This document shows, in pieces, positions 127 to 43,156 of a stretch of 43,156 nt of DNA. How positions within the stretch are numbered: the stretch's first letter is position 1; every line of letters begins with the position of its first letter. The translations under genes and the position numbers were made by a program. Location: positions 1 through 43,156 of the IMG/VR virus record IMGVR_UViG_3300047496_000036. The stretch is one strand, 5' to 3'. A model generated the notes under the pieces. It was not told the origin of the DNA and searched no databases. It was given only the letters and a program-made list of their open reading frames with translations. This DNA comes from a virus.

Positions 127-203
127 GAGATTTTATATTGGGTATTTTGACTATGACGCTTTTAGTAATGATTAGCCAAGATTATAGGAGGTTAAAGGGA
201 TAG
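123..203 (+). CDS. Tiny membrane protein (26 aa)
   Basis: ATG 123 overlaps the previous TGA, with AAAGGG just upstream as ribosome binding site. The product begins MRDFILGILTMTLLVMISQD, one hydrophobic helix, and ends in basic residues YRRLKG. The last 12 bases before the stop (189-200) repeat 112-123 at the end of the previous gene. Function unknown; a small single-pass membrane peptide. Confidence 0.55.
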   Translation: MRDFILGILTMTLLVMISQDYRRLKG

Positions 204-204
204 C

Positions 205-363
205 CTATAACTAACGACTAGAACTGAGGCTGATTAGATTTTGCTAGCTCAGAACATGCGAAATCCAGCCTCTAACTGGTCGCTAGTAGCCGGATAAGAT
301 TAAAGGGTGCAGGTAAAATCTGCGGTGGAGAAATCCTTTTAAGGCCTATTTAATCCCGGCTAC
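205..363 (+). ncRNA. Predicted structured RNA, two long stems
   Basis: No gene fits here, but two long helices can be drawn. Stem 1 pairs 210-221 with 276-287 (one mismatch, one G.U) and 226-232 with 266-272, separated by a small internal loop. Stem 2 pairs AGCCGG 288-293 with 356-361 and GATTAAA 298-304 with 349-355. Inside it are GCAG 309-312/CTGC 320-323 and a GGA-GAAA-TCC hairpin at 327-336 with a GNRA loop. It directly precedes the twin hairpins and tRNA-like element and may be one RNA with them. Pairing was found by eye. Confidence 0.6.
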
Positions 364-370
364 TCCTAAA

Positions 371-457
371 AGAGAGATAGTTCGCTGGGCGGTAGGGAAA
401 TAGAAGACGTTCTAAGAGTTGGAATCAATAGTCTACCGCCCGGCAATCTGTCTCTCT
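371..457 (+). ncRNA. Twin hairpin element, copy A
   Basis: Outer helix AGAGAGA 371-377 with TCTCTCT 451-457; internal loop TAGTTC/AATCTG; inner 12-bp helix GCTGGGCGGTAG 384-395 with 433-444; apical TAGAA/TTCTA mini-hairpin at 401-414. Helices and internal loop are shared with copy B at 548-637 while the apical parts differ, which suggests selection on structure. It lies three bases before the tRNA-like element. Confidence 0.65.
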
Positions 458-459
458 AA

Positions 460-536
460 GGGGCGTTAATGTAGTGGTAACAGCAACTAGTCATCCGTGG
501 CTCTAGTTCTCACAGGTTCGATTCCTGTGCGCCCCA
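460..536 (+). tRNA. tRNA-like element with abnormal anticodon arm
   Basis: It has a 7-bp acceptor stem (GGGGCGT 460-466 with GCGCCCC 529-535), discriminator A536 without encoded CCA, a short D arm with the GGTA signature, and a perfect T arm (ACAGG, loop TTCGATT, CCTGT). The anticodon arm is not canonical: no 5-bp stem with a 7-nt loop fits. Instead ACTAG 486-490 pairs with CTAGT 503-507 around a 12-nt loop, or AACT/AGTT plus AGTCA/TGGCT form a longer hairpin with loop TCCG. The anticodon therefore cannot be assigned. It may be a decayed tRNA, a tRNA mimic or a domain of a larger RNA. Confidence 0.55.
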
Positions 537-547
537 TTAAGTTCATT

Positions 548-637
548 GAGGGAGATAGTTCGCTGGGCGGTAGAGTCTATTCGACCGCCGTTGCATTATG
601 CGGTGACGCCAAGTACCGCCCGGCTATCTGTCTCTCT
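548..637 (+). ncRNA. Twin hairpin element, copy B
   Basis: AGGGAGA 549-555 pairs with TCTCTCT 631-637; one A-to-G change relative to copy A keeps pairing as G.U. Internal loop TAGTTC/TATCTG; 11-bp helix from 562-572 with 614-624; a different apical hairpin (ACCGC 584-588 with GCGGT 600-604). It ends about 30 bases before the next gene. Confidence 0.65.
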
Positions 638-1400: not shown

Positions 1401-1763
1401 ATGGGAATCAAACGAGATAAAGCGGACGCCCTCTTCAGTAAGTGGATTAGGGTACGAGATAACTGGACCTGCCAAAGGTGTCTCAAAAACTACGAAGGGC
1501 ATACGCAAGGGTTACATTGCTCGCATTTCCAAGGACGGGCAAAAGAGAGTACTCGCTTTGAGCCACTTAATGCCGATGCCCTTTGCTACGGGTGTCACCA
1601 ATACTTCACCAGTCATCCCGCCGAACACTACGAATGGCAAATTAAACGAAAGGGACAAGATGTCATCAACCAACTCGTCTTACTCAGCAACACCTATAAG
1701 AAGAAAGACAGGCTTGCCGAAGCCCTCTACTGGACTCAAGAGCTTAAGAACCAAGAGACTTAG
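1401..1763 (+). CDS. ninG: NinG/Rap-like HNH-type recombination protein
   Basis: The 120-residue product starts with a helical FSKWIRVRD segment followed by Cys24-x2-Cys27, His39-x2-His42 with HFQGR, then Asn57 and Cys62-x2-Cys65-His66. This order matches the lambda NinG/Rap family, which cuts or processes branched recombination intermediates, and is related to HNH nucleases. ATG 1401 is forced by a stop at 1395. Its ribosome binding site is weak. A second frame overlaps it: a GTG at 1384 has a better site, and a small membrane ORF overlaps the 3' end. With no phage polymerase visible, this may be the only recombination enzyme encoded. Confidence 0.7.
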   Translation: MGIKRDKADALFSKWIRVRDNWTCQRCLKNYEGHTQGLHCSHFQGRAKESTRFEPLNADALCYGCHQYFTSHPAEHYEWQIKRKGQDVINQLVLLSNTYKKKDRLAEALYWTQELKNQET

Positions 1764-2574: not shown

Positions 2575-3156
2575 ATGATTGCAATTTGCCTACCCTCAAG
2601 AGGACTAATGCACTCCAGGACTATGCAGGACATCCTATCCAATATCCGTAACTTCGATGAGATAGGCTTTTATTTTTCCCACGGACACTCTATTCCAGAG
2701 TCTCATAACATCTGTGTTGATGAAGCTTTGATGGATGAGCCGGATTATGTATGGTTGTGCGAGGACGATCAGAGTTATCCACATGATATTTTAGACCGAA
2801 TGATTAAAGCCGACGTTGATCTGGCGGTCTGTGATTACCCCGTAGGAATAGGCAAATTACCTTGTATAAAATACGCCAAGAACGGAGACATTCAATACGC
2901 CGGAACTGGCTGTGTTTTAGTAAAGCCTTGGATTTTTCATAAAATAGGTTATCCTTACTTTAGGACTGATACAATCTATATGGAAGATACAATGGAACCA
3001 GTTGAGAATAACATTCCAAACCCCCACGGACTACATGATGTAGATTTTTGGGTGAGAGCTTTAAAATTAAATCCCTCCTACTCCGTTGTGGATAGGATAG
3101 GACATTATAAGTTAGATGTTCGCTTACCGGACTATAAGGTGGAAAAATGGTCATAA
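2575..3156 (+). CDS. Glycosyltransferase, GT-A fold (GT2-like)
   Basis: First gene of an eight-gene overlapping operon. The 193-residue product begins with a beta-strand (IAICLPSRG), has ESHNICVDEAL, then the metal-binding motif WLCEDDQSYP (Glu63-Asp64-Asp65) expected of nucleotide-sugar-dependent GT-A enzymes, and later GTGCVLVKP and HDVDFW. It is shorter than usual GT2 proteins but keeps the nucleotide-binding core. It is distantly like the phage gene product at 10661-11500. The acceptor is unknown. The next gene starts 10 bases before its stop. Confidence 0.75.
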   Translation: MIAICLPSRGLMHSRTMQDILSNIRNFDEIGFYFSHGHSIPESHNICVDEALMDEPDYVWLCEDDQSYPHDILDRMIKADVDLAVCDYPVGIGKLPCIKYAKNGDIQYAGTGCVLVKPWIFHKIGYPYFRTDTIYMEDTMEPVENNIPNPHGLHDVDFWVRALKLNPSYSVVDRIGHYKLDVRLPDYKVEKWS

Positions 3157-4058
3157 GATACGTTGGGAATTTCCGTGAGACCTATTGTACGGAGACCCAT
3201 CTAGCCAAGACTCTAGAGAATCTTGGGCATGAGGTGATTCGTCTGCAAGAAGATACTACTCAAGATGTTGTTGGGAAGTGCGACCTTTTCCTCTTTACTA
3301 GAACTTGGGGTAATACGGTAAAAATGGAACACCTACAAGAGTACAAGAAGATGAAGATCCCGACAGTCTCATGGCACCTTGATCTGTATGTTGGGCTTCA
3401 AAGAGACGGGGGGATAGACAACGATCCGTTTTGGCGGACAGATTTTGTATTCACGCCTGATGGAGACCCTAAATCTGCCGAAGTTTTCAAGGAAAAAGGC
3501 ATAAATCACCACTACATGAAACCCGGTGTATTCAAAGATGAGTGTTATATCCCGAAAATCCCGACCCCGGACAGGCACGAGTTAATCTTTGTCGGGTCAT
3601 ATAACTACCATCCGGAATGGCCGTACCGACAACAGTTAATAGACTTCCTTAAATCGACTTATCCACAGTTTGAGCACTGGGGCCCGGAAGGGCGAGGGCT
3701 AGTAAGGGGAGACGCCCTGAACCGTCTATACGCTAATACGAAGGTCGTGGTCGGGGATTCACTCTGCTTAGGTTTTGATAAGCCCTATTACTGGTCGGAT
3801 AGAGTCTATGAGACTTTAGGAAGAGGCGGGTTTCTTATCCATCCGTACATCGAAGGCATGGACGAAGAGTTCGTGGACGGAGTTCATCTGGCTTATTACA
3901 AATACGGAGATTTTGAAGAACTTAAAGCCAAGATAGACTACTTCCTTCAAGCTGATCGAGTGAGAGAAGATATTCGGAAGATTGGACATGAGTTCGTCAA
4001 GAAACACGCTACTTACGAGAACCGAGCTAAGGACGTTTTAGATGTCGTATTGGGATAA
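3147..4058 (+). CDS. Glycosyltransferase, GT-B fold (CgeB/GT1-like)
   Basis: The 303-residue protein has an N-terminal Rossmann-like half (residues 1-130, starting MVIRYVGNF) and a C-terminal half with IFVGSYNYHPEWPYRQ near 148 and YETLGRGGFLIHP near 228. The latter is the donor-binding region typical of CgeB-type family-1 glycosyltransferases. The helical C-terminus KKHATYENRAKDVLDVV matches the end of that family. Start ATG 3147 overlaps the upstream gene by 10 bases. The sugar and acceptor cannot be told. Confidence 0.8.
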   Translation: MVIRYVGNFRETYCTETHLAKTLENLGHEVIRLQEDTTQDVVGKCDLFLFTRTWGNTVKMEHLQEYKKMKIPTVSWHLDLYVGLQRDGGIDNDPFWRTDFVFTPDGDPKSAEVFKEKGINHHYMKPGVFKDECYIPKIPTPDRHELIFVGSYNYHPEWPYRQQLIDFLKSTYPQFEHWGPEGRGLVRGDALNRLYANTKVVVGDSLCLGFDKPYYWSDRVYETLGRGGFLIHPYIEGMDEEFVDGVHLAYYKYGDFEELKAKIDYFLQADRVREDIRKIGHEFVKKHATYENRAKDVLDVVLG

Positions 4059-4560
4059 CGTAGATCCTATAGAGATGGGTGGAACCGATGACACCACACA
4101 GGAGCACGTTGATAAACTATTATTCTTAGCGCCCACAGGCGGGTCAGTCCTAGAGATAGGTTGCGGTATGGGCCGTTTACTCAGCGAGCTCACGGGATTC
4201 TTTGATAACTTATACGGTTACGATCCCTCGGAAACCCTACTAGCCAAAGCTCCTAAGGGTAAGATCATCTACACTACCGATCTGCCTGATAGAAAATTTG
4301 ACTTCATCTATTCGATGTTGGTTTTTCAACATATTACAGACGAGTCAAAAAAAGAATATATCGAGTATGCCTCAAAACACCTCTTAGTGGATGGTATGTT
4401 TAAATTCCAGTACGTCACCGAGGGAGAACGATCTCCTCAAAACTTCCCCGTAAAGGACGATGATATAAATAAATACTGCTTAGAGGCTGGTTTTACGGTC
4501 AATATCACCCAGGACAGTAAATACCCACAGTGGAGTTGGGCAACTTGTGAGTTGCGGTAG
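4042..4560 (+). CDS. SAM-dependent methyltransferase (class I)
   Basis: The 172-residue protein carries motif I VLEIGCGMGR (residues 36-45), an acidic motif II (YGYDPS), and FDFIYSMLVFQHI for motif IV, the usual class I Rossmann methyltransferase core. It overlaps both neighbouring glycosyltransferase operon genes, so it probably methylates a sugar or glycan product of this cassette rather than DNA; no DNA-recognition domain is present. Substrate assignment is inference. Confidence 0.8.
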   Translation: MSYWDNVDPIEMGGTDDTTQEHVDKLLFLAPTGGSVLEIGCGMGRLLSELTGFFDNLYGYDPSETLLAKAPKGKIIYTTDLPDRKFDFIYSMLVFQHITDESKKEYIEYASKHLLVDGMFKFQYVTEGERSPQNFPVKDDDINKYCLEAGFTVNITQDSKYPQWSWATCELR

Positions 4561-13155: not shown

Positions 13156-14712
13156 GTGTATAACACTGCAATACTCCAACTTTTAATACAGCTATCCAGC
13201 GGGTCTACTAGTCTATCTATAAATGTATCCGATACCACTACGACTAGTGAAAAAACTGATGTTATTAGAGCCAATACTAGAGATGTAAACGTCTCGGATA
13301 CATCTACAACCTCTGAAGCGAAGAACTCTACACTAGTAGATAATCTATCGGTTAGCGATAGCACGACAACTAGTGAGTTAAAAGACATTATTCGGAACAA
13401 CTCCCGTGATATCAATGTTTCCGATACAACAACAACTTCAGAAAACACTACTGTCTTACCTATTGGTATATATTGGGATGCGGCTAGTAACTCTGGCTAT
13501 AAAGCTTCCTTCTCAACATATAACTGGAATCATACCACAACAGGTACGAACAGAGGATTAGTCGTAAACGTCTCCTTATTCCTTACTGGTAGCGTCACCT
13601 CAGTCACCTATAACAGCGTCAACTTAGAGTTCATCCGCCAGGATACTATTGGCGTTTACCGTAATGAGATGTGGGTTCTTTACAACCCGACCGTTGGTAC
13701 GAACAGCATCGTCGTCACGCTTAACACAAGCCTTACCTCTATTGCCGGTGCCGATTCTTACACGGGTGTTGATACAGATATGGTCGAAGCCAACACAGGG
13801 ACTACCGGGAGTGGAGTAAGCACACCCAGCCTGAACCTAACTACAGTGTCCGATCAAGCTTGGGTAGTGGATGGATTAACTACATCAAACGCAAGCATGA
13901 GCGTCTCAGGTGGTCAGACTCAACGAAATAACCAGACAGGTGCATTGGGTACTGGAGCGGTGGGCGATAAAGGTCCAATAACTCCACAAGGTTCAACTAC
14001 TATGAGTTGGAGTGCCGTGACTTTAACCGACTCTTGGGCCTTAGGAGCCTTAGCTCTTAACCCAGCCGGAGAAGCTTTTACGGCGTCTATAAGTGTCAGT
14101 GATACTACCGCCACTAGCGAAAGTTTGAACGAACTAGACATTGAATTTATTAACGTAGCAGACAGTACGACTACTAGTGAAAAAACTGATGTCATAAGGG
14201 CTAACGCTAGAGATAGAAGTGTTTCGGACACCACTACCACGAGTGAATCTTCAACGGTTACTATTCAAGCCAGTGGTGCGACTCTAAGCGTGAACGTCTC
14301 AGATACCACTACCACTAGTGAGTCCTTGACAGTCCTTATCCCTACTCTGCTAGTAAGTAAATCAGACACGACTACCACCTCCGAGAGCGTCACAATGCGA
14401 GACGACGATTACTCTATAGGTGTTTCAGATACCTCAACGACATCGGAACTTTCAAAAGTCCTAGTCCCAACCTACCTGATAAGTACCTCAGATACCACAG
14501 TGACGAGTGAGTTCCTAGACATCCTAAGAGCCGGAGCTAGAAATATCTCAAAGACTGATACGACGGTAACCTCCGAAAGGTTGACCGTCATCATTCCAGC
14601 TTTCATCCTACCTACGGATTCGACTATTACAGTCCAAAGAACCGGGCAGATAAACATTTCCGTTTCCCGAATTCCAGCCTATAACTTTACAATTAAGACA
14701 GGAGCCCTATAA
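13156..14712 (+). CDS. Ser/Thr-rich SDTTTTSE-repeat surface protein 1
   Basis: GTG 13156 follows AGGAG by six bases. The 518-residue product has four repeats with SDTTTTSE-like cores at the N-terminus, a central globular domain (about residues 97-310) with features of an adhesin or concanavalin-like sandwich, and about eight more repeats toward the C-terminus. The core varies as SDTSTTSE, ADSTTTSE and TDTTVTSE; spacing is about 20-30 residues. DNA copies of the repeats differ at synonymous positions, so the protein motif is under selection. Probably a fibre or surface adhesin; the Thr/Ser runs are possible O-glycosylation sites. Confidence 0.65.
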   Translation: MYNTAILQLLIQLSSGSTSLSINVSDTTTTSEKTDVIRANTRDVNVSDTSTTSEAKNSTLVDNLSVSDSTTTSELKDIIRNNSRDINVSDTTTTSENTTVLPIGIYWDAASNSGYKASFSTYNWNHTTTGTNRGLVVNVSLFLTGSVTSVTYNSVNLEFIRQDTIGVYRNEMWVLYNPTVGTNSIVVTLNTSLTSIAGADSYTGVDTDMVEANTGTTGSGVSTPSLNLTTVSDQAWVVDGLTTSNASMSVSGGQTQRNNQTGALGTGAVGDKGPITPQGSTTMSWSAVTLTDSWALGALALNPAGEAFTASISVSDTTATSESLNELDIEFINVADSTTTSEKTDVIRANARDRSVSDTTTTSESSTVTIQASGATLSVNVSDTTTTSESLTVLIPTLLVSKSDTTTTSESVTMRDDDYSIGVSDTSTTSELSKVLVPTYLISTSDTTVTSEFLDILRAGARNISKTDTTVTSERLTVIIPAFILPTDSTITVQRTGQINISVSRIPAYNFTIKTGAL

Positions 14713-16404
14713 ATGGCTGATTTAAACATAAACAGAAGCGATACAGTCACAACCCTAGAGGCCTATAACCTAACAGGAGTAAGTGTAGGCGGAAGATTGT
14801 GGAGTTGTGGGGCGGAACAGCAGTCAGTGTCCTTGTTTGGTGGGGAGTTGGACGCTTCTCATAATGCCTCTATAAGCACCTCTATATTTAGATCAGGTCT
14901 AGCTTCGTTCCGCTGTCAGGCTACTACAGCGACCACTAATATCGAGAAGCAGTTCGTAGTAGAGCGAGCCGGGGATACATTTTACTCTCGAGGTTACGTT
15001 TACTTTACAGCTTTCCCCAGTAGTATTTCAACAGGTATCTCAGGTGCTCACAGCGACATAACTATAATGGATTTGACCTCTTCAGACGGGTCGTTCTGTG
15101 AGGTTACTATCGACGCTTCAGGAGTTATAAGAGCCTATTCCGATGGTAATCCCCGGACTTTGCTAGGAACTACCTCGGCTATTAATACCGGCCAGTGGTA
15201 CAGATTAGAACTAGCGTGTAGCACTTACTATCGTTATGTCGAAGCCAGACTGGATGGAGTTCTCATCGGTTCGGCTAATAACATAGTAGGCTTTGAATCG
15301 TACAAAGGCGTTAACTTGGCTATATGGGGTTGTGGGTTATTAGCAAGCGAAAGCTCTACCGTCGATATGTATTGGGACGATTTAGCAGTAAATCAAGGGT
15401 CAGGCGCAACGTCTCAAATATCTTGGCCCGGTTCGGGTAATGTAACTAATCAAGTACCGGGTAACACTGGAGATAATAATTCCTTCACGATCAACGTCGG
15501 AGGAACGGCTGGGCAAGCTAATAACTTCACTCGAGTCAATCAAGTACCTGCCTCTGATGTACAGTACAATGGGGACACTATTAACGGTGATGCCGATGAC
15601 TTACTGGTAACTGCCACCCCTTCGGCTATTACGTCTGGTGACACGATTAACGTAGTCCATGTAGGGATTAGGTATAAACTTTCGGCTACTAGTACTGGTA
15701 CCCAATTAGTCACCAGACTAAAAAAGACTTCCGGTGGGACTCTAACGACCTACGCAATTACACCAGCGAACACTTCATTCCAGAACTTCACCGCGCCACC
15801 GTTTAATACAGGACCCTACTCATATCCAATAACCCTATACAATGACCCCGATGGTCTACCGTGGGCTAAATCTACACTTGACTCATCACAGGTCGGTTAT
15901 CAGATTCTAAGCTCATCTAGTACAGAGTTGGATATCTCAGCTGTTTGGTTAGTAGTTGACTCGACTCCGGGGACTGCCTCGCTATCTATAAACACCTCGG
16001 ATACCACTACCACATCGGAGATGATGAACGACCAACCGAGTGATACAAACTTGAATAAATCCGACACGACTACAACAAGTGAGTCGATTAACATTGTCCA
16101 AGAATATAATCTATCTGTTTCCGATACGACGACAACTAGCGAACTTTCCACTGTTAATCCACCATTACAAGAGATAGATGATGACCCTGACGACACTTCT
16201 CACATGAGCGAGAGACTAACTGTCTATCTTCCGCTTGCGAATACTAAATATATAATTGTCAACGATGACGTTAAAGTAACGGATACCCCAAGTATTTTAG
16301 GGATCCCACCATCTTACGTCGGACCGTTCGGACCTTTGAAATTCACCATAGATGTCAATCCGTATAACTTCTCAATCGAACGATTTAACCCTAACGACCC
16401 TTAG
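14713..16404 (+). CDS. LamG-like domain plus SDTTTTSE-repeat surface protein 2
   Basis: ATG 14713 directly follows the previous stop. The 563-residue product has one degenerate repeat (SDTVTTLE), then a concanavalin/LamG-like domain (about residues 30-235: GLASFRCQATTAT, FYSRGYVYFTAF, GQWYRLELACS, VEARLDGVLIG, YWDDLAVNQG), a second beta-rich domain to about 410, and three clear repeats (SDTTTTSE) followed by a degenerate one. LamG-type domains bind carbohydrates. It likely forms a host-recognition fibre with its neighbour. The 3' end overlaps the convergent gene at 16401 by four bases. Confidence 0.65.
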   Translation: MADLNINRSDTVTTLEAYNLTGVSVGGRLWSCGAEQQSVSLFGGELDASHNASISTSIFRSGLASFRCQATTATTNIEKQFVVERAGDTFYSRGYVYFTAFPSSISTGISGAHSDITIMDLTSSDGSFCEVTIDASGVIRAYSDGNPRTLLGTTSAINTGQWYRLELACSTYYRYVEARLDGVLIGSANNIVGFESYKGVNLAIWGCGLLASESSTVDMYWDDLAVNQGSGATSQISWPGSGNVTNQVPGNTGDNNSFTINVGGTAGQANNFTRVNQVPASDVQYNGDTINGDADDLLVTATPSAITSGDTINVVHVGIRYKLSATSTGTQLVTRLKKTSGGTLTTYAITPANTSFQNFTAPPFNTGPYSYPITLYNDPDGLPWAKSTLDSSQVGYQILSSSSTELDISAVWLVVDSTPGTASLSINTSDTTTTSEMMNDQPSDTNLNKSDTTTTSESINIVQEYNLSVSDTTTTSELSTVNPPLQEIDDDPDDTSHMSERLTVYLPLANTKYIIVNDDVKVTDTPSILGIPPSYVGPFGPLKFTIDVNPYNFSIERFNPNDP

Positions 16405-28683: not shown

Positions 28684-29320
28684 CTTATAGGGGGATAAGT
28701 CATTTCTGCTTATCTCTGCATATTTCTATGCAGACCAGACTATCACTTCACCTTACGGTGTCTCTCGGTTTAGTCGTTGCGGCTGCACACCATTCAATTC
28801 TTTCATCTGTTGATATAGTTTCTCCCTCCTATTTAGCTCCTCAAGGGGCAGTTTCTTAGAAACTTTTTTGTCAGGATGGACTATATCTTCACGAAACTCT
28901 ACTAGCACTTGGGCTTGCGCCCGTTTGACTTTAAGGTACGGCAGTATTGCCTTTACCAGTGTATACGCTTGCGTGTGCGAATACTTGAGGCAGTAGGACT
29001 GCTGGTGATTGTCAAAATATTGTTTCTTGGCAGATAAAGAACTTTTTGGAAAGAACTCTTGGATAAACTTGAGGGGGGTTTGGTCTACTTGAACGATTAT
29101 TATCCGTTCAGCGTAACCCGGAGCCCACTCCTTGCGTAAGTCATACTTACGGTATATCCCAATAGTTCCTTCACCATCAACAAACCCCGCTATATAAGCT
29201 AGGTCGGTTGGAGTTGGTTGCTTGCCTCTGGTTGTCATAGTATAGGTGTAACTTCATTATACACCCATACCTTAGATTTTCCAAGGTGTTTACGAAAGAT
29301 TTTACATGGGCAAAAAATAT
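28684..29320 (-). other. Group I intron in the major capsid gene
   Basis: P1: the 5' exon end ACATGGGT pairs with GCCCATGT inside the intron (29304-29311 side), giving the conserved U.G pair at the cleavage site after base 29321. Core: GCAACGACTAAA (R-like) at 28769-28780 and GATAGTC-type S element at 28738-28744; P7 is GACTA/TAGTC. P8 is CACC/GGTG around GTAA; P9 is TCTGCAT/ATGCAGA. The 3' end is placed after G28684, which restores the capsid frame (116 + 180 residues). The intron ORF is a LAGLIDADG enzyme whose last codons lie inside the core helices. The exact 3' splice site is inferred. Confidence 0.85.
28753..29238 (-). CDS. LAGLIDADG homing endonuclease, intron-encoded
   Basis: The 161-residue product carries one LAGLIDADG motif at residues 13-24 (LAYIAGFVDGEG, acidic Asp21 and Glu23), then GTIGIYRKYD, a beta-rich DNA-binding saddle and a helical basic end. 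A single motif means it should act as a homodimer on a nearly palindromic target. The target is expected to be the intronless capsid gene at the exon junction. ATG 29238 has no strong ribosome site visible. Its TAA stop (28753-28755) lies in the P8 loop of the intron, so coding and ribozyme sequence overlap. Confidence 0.9.
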   Translation of the reverse strand: MTTRGKQPTPTDLAYIAGFVDGEGTIGIYRKYDLRKEWAPGYAERIIIVQVDQTPLKFIQEFFPKSSLSAKKQYFDNHQQSYCLKYSHTQAYTLVKAILPYLKVKRAQAQVLVEFREDIVHPDKKVSKKLPLEELNRREKLYQQMKELNGVQPQRLNRETP

Positions 29321-37366: not shown

Positions 37367-37395
37367 TTGACGTAGTGTAAATAGTCCTGTAGTAT
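37367..37395 (+). promoter_or_regulatory. Sigma70-type promoter, early plus strand
   Basis: TTGACG at 37367-37372, 17-base spacer, TAGTAT at 37390-37395. The first gene starts at 37593, leaving a leader of about 190 bases. Confidence 0.6.
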
Positions 37396-41037: not shown

Positions 41038-41072
41038 ATGCTATACAAACAAACTATAAGGGGGCGGAAATA

Positions 41073-41681
41073 GTGAGCGACATATTAAATATTGACGGTA
41101 GTTTTGGTGTCGGGAATGAATATAGCGAAGAAGAATACAGTAAAGGTTATCGTGAGGGCTTAAAGACTACCCCACCCCTACCAGATAAAGAATTAGAAGC
41201 CGACATATCGGACATCATAGAGTCTAGGCAGTTACCCAAGGGCGCTATCTCGACTAGAGATATGAGGGGCGACCACAATCTATCATCTACCGAGCTAGGC
41301 TTAAAAGTAAGCCTGATACTTCAACGAATAAACGCCAATTACATTCCAAAGAGCCACCTAGAACCGTTACTGGAAGAAGAGGCGGTAACAGTCGTTGAAG
41401 ATTGTGATAATTGCGGAGAAGCTGGCTATGGAAAGATTTGGTTTGGGCGTGGGGCGGAGACTGGCGATAGCTGGGGCGACAGGTATGTACCGCTTGGAGA
41501 AGCTACTTTATGCGAAGATTGCTTTAAAGAGTACCGAATAGGTCGAGAATACTGTGGACAAGAGGTTTGGAAAGTATCATCAGACCGAGCCGAAGCTAGG
41601 CTTTCGCACATAACCTCGCCAAATGAAAAAGCTATCGGCAGAAACGCATTAAAGCAGGAGATACGAAAGGAATTGTTATGA
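41073..41681 (+). CDS. Zinc-ribbon-containing hypothetical protein (202 aa)
   Basis: GTG 41073 follows AAGGGGGCGG. The N-terminal half is acidic and helical; the C-terminal half has CDNCGEAGYGKIWFG and LCEDCFKEYR, a four-Cys zinc ribbon. It sits in the middle of the small early operon and overlaps the next start by four bases. Resembles small phage proteins of unknown function; a nucleic-acid or protein-binding role is likely. An eleven-codon ORF (41038-41073) precedes it. Confidence 0.65.
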   Translation: MSDILNIDGSFGVGNEYSEEEYSKGYREGLKTTPPLPDKELEADISDIIESRQLPKGAISTRDMRGDHNLSSTELGLKVSLILQRINANYIPKSHLEPLLEEEAVTVVEDCDNCGEAGYGKIWFGRGAETGDSWGDRYVPLGEATLCEDCFKEYRIGREYCGQEVWKVSSDRAEARLSHITSPNEKAIGRNALKQEIRKELL

Positions 41682-42079
41682 GTAATTTAACTGAACACGC
41701 AAAACAAGAATTAGTAATGGCCGGAGTGTTTGACAAGGACTCGGACTACAACGGCATGATTGGCGAGGCTGTTATGGAATTAGTCGAAGTCTTTGCTAAA
41801 CAGGGTCATAGTGGCTTCTCCGCCAGCCTAACGCTAGAACTGTTTAATAAGGTGGCGAACTTCAAGAACATTCTGCCTATCGGTAAAACCAAAGCCGAGT
41901 GGATGAACGTCAGCGATATGTCCAACGAAAAGTTATGGCAGAACAAACGCCGAGGCTCAACATTCTCACGGGACGGCGGTAAGACTTGGTATGACATCGA
42001 CGACCCCAAACTAAATAGCGGCGACACTTGGGTTAAAGAGCCAGCCCCTAACCTTTTAGATAAGGGTGAGGGGGCGTGA
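41678..42079 (+). CDS. Hypothetical protein (133 aa)
   Basis: ATG 41678 overlaps the previous stop (ATGA). The product begins LTEHAKQELVMAGVFDKDSD, then MELVEVFAKQGHSGFSASLT and EWMNVSDMSNEKLWQNKRRG with an Asp/Lys-rich end. EHAKQELxxAGxxD-like proteins are common in phages of actinobacteria and related hosts, but the function is not known. Confidence 0.65.
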   Translation: MSNLTEHAKQELVMAGVFDKDSDYNGMIGEAVMELVEVFAKQGHSGFSASLTLELFNKVANFKNILPIGKTKAEWMNVSDMSNEKLWQNKRRGSTFSRDGGKTWYDIDDPKLNSGDTWVKEPAPNLLDKGEGA

Positions 42080-42267
42080 TGAACCAAGCTGAGTTTATGA
42101 AATTACCCCTTGAAAGTCGCAAGAAGATTGAATTAGCCATACTCGATTTAGACAAGGCTGTAAAAGCTCACCACGGAATATCAATGCTTAAAAAGAAACC
42201 CAAGCTTAAATCCGCCCATCCAGCCGACCTTTTAGATACAAGGGAGGCGTCCGATGGCAAAAGTTAA
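42076..42267 (+). CDS. Hypothetical small protein (63 aa)
   Basis: Start overlaps the previous stop; ATG 42076 or 42079. Product NQAEFMKLPLESRKKIELAI, then a basic KKKPKLKSAHPADLLD segment. Overlaps the next gene by 14 bases. No family recognised. Confidence 0.6.
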   Translation: MMNQAEFMKLPLESRKKIELAILDLDKAVKAHHGISMLKKKPKLKSAHPADLLDTREASDGKS

Positions 42268-42517
42268 TAAACCTAATCAAAAGTCAGGTGTTAATAATCC
42301 AGAGAGCCTAGAGTATAGTCAGTGGCCGGAAAAGGGCGTTGCCACAGCTAAGTCAATCGAATGGGAGAATGGCGAGGGTATAGATATTTTCTTAGGTAAC
42401 ACGCATATCGAACTGTCCCACCAAGAATATGATGCTCTTGTGGCCGCTGAACAACTCCGCCAAGTAAATTACATGTTAAAGGATGAACACGTCAGATGGA
42501 TATGGCGTTCTTTGTGA
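42254..42517 (+). CDS. Hypothetical small protein (87 aa)
   Basis: ATG 42254 follows AAGGGAGG. The product has GVATAKSIEWENGEGIDIFL, LGNTHIELSHQEYDALVAAE and ends VRWIWRSL. Small alpha/beta composition, not recognised. Overlaps a tiny membrane-peptide gene. Confidence 0.65.
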   Translation: MAKVNKPNQKSGVNNPESLEYSQWPEKGVATAKSIEWENGEGIDIFLGNTHIELSHQEYDALVAAEQLRQVNYMLKDEHVRWIWRSL

Positions 42518-42582
42518 CCATGTTCGGCATGATTAGCTTAATTGCCCTAGCCTGTATCGTAACTATCGGAGGTTACAAGTAA
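42496..42582 (+). CDS. Tiny membrane protein (28 aa)
   Basis: ATG 42496 lies in another frame inside the end of the previous gene. Product begins MDMAFFVTMFGMISLIALAC and ends IVTIGGYK, one membrane helix. Its stop overlaps the next ATG (TAATG). Coupling supports it. Confidence 0.45.
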   Translation: MDMAFFVTMFGMISLIALACIVTIGGYK

Positions 42583-42845
42583 TGCCTCAATCAATACCTA
42601 ACCTATCGGAAGAGTGGTCAAAAATATTTGTTGAGTATGGACAGAAAGTGGCCGCCGCCCAAGAAAACTACGCCCTTACAGACGACGAAGAAGCAACACT
42701 GGAAGACTTAAGAGATTATCTGAAAACAGCCAAAGCTCAACTAGTAAAGAGTTTGGAGGGGGCCGGAGATTTACATATAGACCCGATTGACGATAAGTTT
42801 AGTTCTTTAGAAATACCCCTAGAGGTTATAAGAGAGATATTATGA
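42582..42845 (+). CDS. Hypothetical helical protein (87 aa)
   Basis: Start overlaps the tiny membrane gene stop; CGGAGG lies upstream. Product MPQSIPNLSEEWSKIFVEYG, then a coiled segment (DEEATLEDLRDYLKTAKAQL). Followed by a gene that also starts SQSIPE. Possibly tandem paralogues; no function known. Confidence 0.65.
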   Translation: MPQSIPNLSEEWSKIFVEYGQKVAAAQENYALTDDEEATLEDLRDYLKTAKAQLVKSLEGAGDLHIDPIDDKFSSLEIPLEVIREIL

Positions 42846-43156
42846 GCCAATCAATACCTGAGATAGAAGATTTAGATTTAATACTAGCAAAGTTCGCTCA
42901 AGAGTCAGTTCATGCTGTCCGTCAAGCCATAGAAGATAACTGGACTCGTGAAGAATCTTTACAAATCCAACACTCCAAAATAGTTAATTCCAAAGCCACA
43001 CTATCCCATTTAATCGCTAAAAGAGAAGTAGAGGCAGAACATAAAGGTGCTATAAATGCACTCACTCAACTCAAAGTCGATAGAATCGCACATACACTAT
43101 CAACCGATTCAAGAGAGTGGACTCGTGAGATTGATTTCATTGAAGAACACATTAAG
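42842..43156 (+). CDS. Hypothetical protein, N-terminal 105 codons of a gene crossing the circle join
   Basis: ATG at 42842 overlaps the TGA of the previous gene (ATGA), which points to translational coupling. The frame is open to the end of the window and continues from base 100 to a TGA at 124-126, giving a protein of about 113 residues. It is rich in Gln, Glu, Lys and Ile with no membrane segment and looks largely helical. It starts MSQSIPE, much like the preceding gene product (MPQSIPN), so the two may be distant paralogues. No known domain is recognised. Confidence 0.8.
   Translation, partial: MSQSIPEIEDLDLILAKFAQESVHAVRQAIEDNWTREESLQIQHSKIVNSKATLSHLIAKREVEAEHKGAINALTQLKVDRIAHTLSTDSREWTREIDFIEEHIK
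43058..43156. repeat. Terminal 99-bp direct repeat, right copy (circle join)
   Basis: Exact copy of bases 1-99. Joining base 43156 to base 100 keeps the gene that starts at 42842 open to its stop at 126. Confidence 0.95.

Follow-up and report, generated by a model that had tools for sequence, protein, structure and literature searches.

The early region of the phage record IMGVR_UViG_3300047496_000036 carries a row of hairpins that recur, with variations, in other phages. On the evidence of sequence comparison, these hairpins are sense-strand RNA modules with a conserved bottom and an exchangeable top, lying ahead of early genes. What recurs is a two-tier hairpin module located shortly before gene starts, and the flanking of a tRNA by such hairpins, which the initial annotation of this DNA had taken as the defining feature, is incidental. 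We saw A-type hairpins in two phages and an analogous type in three others.

The hairpin array

The window, that is, the whole stretch of 43,156 nucleotides that was analysed, is a complete-looking phage record. Its ends overlap by 99 bp, so its position 1 is arbitrary. A non-coding stretch of about 460 nt (from about 205 to 660), flanked by a mini-ORF on one side and the gene at 667 on the other, contains in this order the hairpins M1, M2 and A, a tRNA-family domain (T) and the hairpin B (Table 1). When 195-660 was folded as one piece, a z-score of -7.6 against shuffles was obtained, and M1, M2, A and B were each far more stable than shuffled sequences: z was -5.8 for M1 and -3.9 for M2 (-6.6 and -4.2 in a second run with the exact stretches). 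A and B indeed fold as claimed by the initial annotation, with z-scores of -6.8 and -5.6, respectively (-7.5 and -5.1 for the exact stretches, dinucleotide shuffles). Their common arms form a pair of direct repeats (D9/D10, 96% identity), and a repeat search of the window detected these arms in two copies only, A and B. As had been described, both hairpins contain an internal loop, which is 3x3, their apical parts differ, and an A-to-G change in the outer helix (A373 to G551) retains pairing as G.U. The geometry had to be amended in places: the outer helix is 10 bp in both hairpins and not 7 bp, B starts at 549 instead of 548, and the 11-12 bp assigned to the inner helix are correct for B but too few for A, where we counted 13 bp. 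The 3' arm of A can also pair with the 5' arm of B around T (432-574), and the free-energy minimum of the whole region is a nested long duplex around T, in which the 5' arm of A is paired with the 3' arm of B as well, not two separate hairpins.

Table 1. Hairpins, tRNA-family domain and neighbouring early genes of the window.
Feature	Position	Strand	Description
Hairpin M1	211..286	+	Lower helix of about 10-11 bp with one mismatch (211-221/276-286), closing on UAG/CUG; internal loop AACU/UAA; upper helix GAGGCUG/CAGCCUC; apical hairpin
Hairpin M2	286..363	+	Lower helix 286-293/356-363; one-sided 4-nt bulge AUAA; inner helix GAUUAAA/UUUAAUC; branched top
Hairpin A	371..457	+	10-bp lower helix 371-380/448-457; 3x3 internal loop UUC/AAU (381-383/445-447); 13-bp upper helix 384-396/432-444; apical part of 35 nt
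Domain T	460..536	+	7-bp acceptor, D arm, canonical T arm, discriminator A, no encoded CCA
Hairpin B	549..637	+	10-bp lower helix 549-558/628-637; internal loop UUC/UAU; 11-bp upper helix; 41-nt apical part, unrelated to that of A
Early gene, 64 aa	667..861	+	Immediately 3' of B; AAGGAG ahead of ATG
Early gene, 49 aa	881..1030	+	98% identical in the window and L017
NinG/Rap-like HNH endonuclease gene	1401..1763	+	phrog_5034, E 1e-18

Covariance-model searches, which the initial annotation had recommended, assigned the hairpins to no Rfam family at threshold. Identity with GOLLD or ROOL was thus rejected, as were miRNA-like Rfam hits with scores far below cut-off. By motif consideration M1 does not look like a hammerhead, as it contains CUGAUUAG..GAAA but not the essential G of CUGANGA, and integron attC sites were dismissed since no RYYYAAC/GTTRRRY ends were apparent by eye.

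Between the end of B and the ATG at 667 there are 29 nt. The gene starting there has no match in Pfam or among the PHROGs; direct reading showed that an ORF of a second phage, L017 (see below), begins similarly. The 49-aa gene is the first conserved gene 3' of the array in both phages. Elsewhere in the window, 13156-16404 (+) encodes two large proteins with repeated SDTTTTSE motifs, corresponding to the DNA direct repeats D1, D2 and D4, and 28753-29238 (-), inside the structural gene cluster, has a weak LAGLIDADG endonuclease match just under cut-off.

The domain between the twin hairpins

The domain between A and B had been called tRNA-like, which proved too cautious: with 33 bits against RF00005, it exceeds the curated cut-off of 29, although the fast-filter Rfam search missed it. 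T thus shares with phage tRNA genes the acceptor, D and T arms and a score over the family cut-off; it differs from them by a 14-nt anticodon loop, the absence of an encoded CCA and its enclosure by twin hairpins. Because of this loop, ARAGORN at default settings did not call T. It was read at relaxed thresholds only, and this reading needs either an 8-nt loop with a mispaired, bulged stem or a 7-nt "intron". The 7-nt loop with a readable anticodon expected of a tRNA is therefore missing, and such a domain without a normal anticodon is unlikely to decode.

A second phage keeps hairpin A and no tRNA

Exact and gapped patterns were derived from both helices (upper and lower) of A/B, from the arm of B and from the top of M1, and 2.9 million viral contigs were scanned with them. 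The sole true match was IMGVR 3300047496_000083 (L017, phage G001); the other hits were rejected because no two-tier hairpin was present, and seven matches from one scan of genome contigs were all judged to be chance. The DNA of L017 is mostly unalignable with the window. It carries window positions 202-281 (M1) at 98.75% identity, 365-459 (A, 95 nt) at 100% and then 850-1045, including the 49-aa gene, at 99%. T, B and M2 are missing from L017: sequence comparison revealed no counterpart of M2, the place of which between M1 and A is taken by other structures, and no tRNA match was found in the L017 genome. Since L017 keeps A and has no tRNA match, a tRNA between hairpins is not a fixed part of the arrangement.

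Directly 5' of A, L017 has instead another hairpin, C, which shares the 10-bp lower-helix geometry and UUC/AAU loop of A but differs in sequence and has a top of some 150 nt. Among 17 comparable pairs, counted by script with the gap at a 2-bp deletion beside the internal loop placed by hand, seven were changed on both sides, one on one side and nine were unchanged; none was broken. These compensatory changes are of the kind that the initial annotation had proposed to look for in relatives, and its reading of the region as a structured non-coding RNA of conserved architecture is supported.

A search for similar DNA in phages and plasmids returned one match, to the 3' half of a real tRNA-Met (Dorea phage), and otherwise none; with L017 queries, two hits were obtained, both chance. 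Sub-threshold BLAST hits of terminase relatives inside the M1 stretch (E of at least 0.01) were likewise treated as chance, and no related RNA was found there. In a separate comparison, window positions 41038-43156 plus 1-158 were found to share with L054 (1-1510) blocks of 25-152 bp, 94-100% identical, at the starts of small early genes (for example ATGCCTCAATCAATACCT and ATGAGCCAATCAATACCT), the remainder of those genes being different. These small genes look as if they had been exchanged via short conserved start segments.

Hairpins of the same plan in three other phages

Relatives of the NinG/HNH gene with 63-68% identity are present in phages G020, G022 and G023. All three carry hairpins directly behind this gene, and G020 has another one farther downstream. 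The hairpins come as a tandem pair, separated by 11 nt, in G020 and G023. The plan consists of a 10-11 bp lower helix, a small internal loop, a GC-rich upper helix and a variable top, and is thus that of A, B and C, but the loop is GUA/CA instead of UUC/AAU and there is no detectable sequence homology. No tRNA lies between these hairpins, which again speaks against tRNA flanking as a defining character. Across the window and G020-G023, the separate hairpins have z-scores of about -4 to -9.

The sequence-free scan for this plan gave approximately equal hits per base in shuffled and real DNA, hence the plan alone proves nothing, and we accepted the hits in G020, G022 and G023 solely on account of identical arms that were found repeatedly at one and the same intergenic position. 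In the scan of complete related records, these arms were found in different combinations: the lower helix ATTAAGCGTA is joined to the upper helix GTGCTGG.. in G022 and in G020 H3, and to CAGATTCCCC.. in H2 of both G020 and G023, while the lower helix ATTCGACTGTA is joined to GTGCTGG.. in G023 H1 and to TTAGCAGTAA.. in G020 H1. Between ATTAAGCGTA/TACGCTTAAT (G020/G022) and ATTCGACTGTA/TACAGTCGAAT (G023), the changes are compensatory and every pair is kept. Moreover, comparing G020 and G023, one upper hairpin is only 49% identical (that is, unrelated) between flanks that are both 95% identical, and the replacement falls exactly inside the conserved lower arms.

H2 (L046 6664-6820, L043 3358-3514) is a 157-nt branched RNA with an 11-bp perfect outer helix; its copies are 99% identical, and the L043 copy has no Rfam match. 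Further strong folds, partly non-coding and of different structures, were observed in phage G021 (L044) at 2850-3080 and 3530-4240.

Strand and transcription

Several changes keep their pairs through G.U on the gene-sense strand: A373/G551, the U.G beside the loop in A, B and C, an A-to-G change in G020 H1 and two G/A swaps in H2. On the opposite strand, the same changes would give A.C mismatches, and the sense RNA strand is therefore favoured. The sense fold is also usually stronger than the antisense fold.

Ahead of the arrays of G020, G022 and G023, a promoter-like match (TTGAC[GT]-17-TAGTAT) occurs at the same place, and the hairpins sit between this match and a gene start. Such matches score 9/12 and about one per region is expected by chance, so that their value rests on recurrence at the same place. 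At the syntenic place of G021, the promoter-like match is present but there is no hairpin before the ribosome-binding site. In the window, the same hexamers occur on the + strand at 37367-37395, ahead of its early genes; the scan detected no promoter directly ahead of the array, and no intrinsic terminator was found in the arrays of the window or L017. We infer that the modules are transcribed as part of an early phage transcript.

Possible roles of the modules

In our analysis, the best explanation, to which we would give somewhat less than an even chance, is that the hairpins are cis-acting processing and protection signals of early mRNA, of the T7 RNase III kind. An early transcript, running in the direction of the early genes, would carry a row of independently folding RNA modules, each with about 10 bp in its lower helix, followed by a small internal loop and a GC-rich upper helix under a variable structured cap. 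The resulting irregular duplexes of about 24-26 bp would be cut or bound by a double-strand-specific nuclease, for example host RNase III, and so act as processing and protection signals on the polycistronic early mRNA. A would leave a stable hairpin at a 3' end, B a defined leader ahead of the next ribosome-binding site and T, where present, would punctuate the transcript a second time (RNase P/RNase Z). The constant recognition platform would consist of the lower helix and the internal loop; the top would vary freely and be swapped among phages through recombination in the arms, perhaps since it has a second, strain-specific role.

Like the R1.1-type hairpins of T7 (PMC6121014, PMC8708148), the hairpins described here are irregular, about 20 bp or two turns long, interrupted by an internal loop and located between early genes in the sense of transcription. 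Unlike them, they combine a covarying lower helix with a fixed loop sequence, they have large tops that are swapped between phages, they occur in tandem copies and they may enclose a tRNA-family domain. RNase III substrates require neither a fixed loop sequence nor elaborate tops of 100-150 nt, thus tops such as those of C, H2 and H3 are not explained by processing alone.

The main rival to processing is a trans-acting role, perhaps against host defence. The modules would then be precursors of separate RNAs whose effector is the variable top or the anticodon-less tRNA, for instance as a decoy or mimic directed at host defence or RNA enzymes, while the constant stem is there for stability or gets processed. 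We consider this doubtful, at around a one-in-four level of belief. The conserved bases under wholly different tops, best seen in the G020/G023 replacement, fit such a role. Circumstantially, so does a clear homologue of Tad3, the anti-defence protein against type I Thoeris (PF25185, E 2.9e-34), encoded in the early region at 41678-42079 (+), which, with the genome read as a circle, is about 1.3 kb before M1. There are also precedents: RNA mimicry by phages is documented in the evasion of type III toxin-antitoxin (PMC3475682), and phage tRNAs are reported to evade retrons and other defences (PMC11555353). However, comparison of the tops with both phage genomes gave repeat-like and antisense matches at chance level only, so antisense pairing was rejected, and the tops have no sequence link to a known mimic. 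Also with roughly one chance in four, the arrays could be tandem cassettes of a new class of phage non-coding RNA, in which the constant stem is a socket and whole structured RNA tops are swapped between phages as effectors. In this reading, the anticodon-less tRNA between two sockets would count among the swapped tops of the window phage, and the swapping would resemble that of defence and counter-defence genes at the protein level.

Less probable still, yet not negligible, is that the hairpins are leader structures setting the translation of the next small gene, as a counterpart of the SAS/ESAS of actinobacteriophages. In cluster K mycobacteriophages, ESAS are 17-bp imperfect inverted repeats with a variable spacer, found just upstream of starts and only in the non-structural half of the genome (PMC3203893), and similar repeats exist in Microbacterium phages (PMC7302621). 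Our hairpins resemble them in being inverted repeats whose spacer varies and which lie shortly before the ribosome-binding sites and starts of non-structural genes in the early region. However, SAS are present in 11-19 copies per genome, about half with ESAS, which adjoin the 13-bp SAS and have a single consensus of about 17 bp per subcluster and spacers of 4-13 bp. Here, we found few copies (two for the A/B arms), two-tier stems with several lower-helix sequences and structured tops of 35-160 nt; furthermore, A and M1 are not immediately before a gene.

The hairpins are quite unlikely to matter as DNA, for example as recombination, replication or packaging sites or miniature mobile elements. 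Exchange of modules exactly at helix boundaries and exact blocks common to two otherwise divergent phages fit such elements, but the G.U-preserving changes and the usually stronger sense fold favour one RNA strand, and integron-type ends were not seen by eye. Least probable of all is one large ornate RNA spanning 205-640, in which M1, M2, A, T and B would be the domains of one fold or multimer: ROOL and GOLLD are also large structured phage RNAs of no known function near tRNA islands, with tRNAs sometimes in the GOLLD linker (PMC12286853), and the whole stretch does fold strongly, but our modules are separate, shufflable hairpins without an Rfam match, their set and order differ between the window phage and L017, and a co-evolving fold would not easily allow A to be fully kept without T and B.

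Modular exchange is well known for the protein genes of phages; in the phages compared here, it is apparently entire RNA hairpin tops that are exchanged, within a bottom helix that is conserved and covaries. All together, these rows of hairpins point to an undescribed modular type of phage RNA that probably serves in the processing or regulation of early messages. For now, we file them as a variant of phage intercistronic hairpins, with a modest chance, perhaps a quarter, that they form a new class of modular effector RNA. If they act in trans, they would be the equivalent, at the RNA level, of a counter-defence locus. As processing signals, they would represent a version of the T7 scheme that is specific to a lineage and uncommonly elaborate, and their naturally matched sockets and tops would allow a direct test of RNase III recognition.
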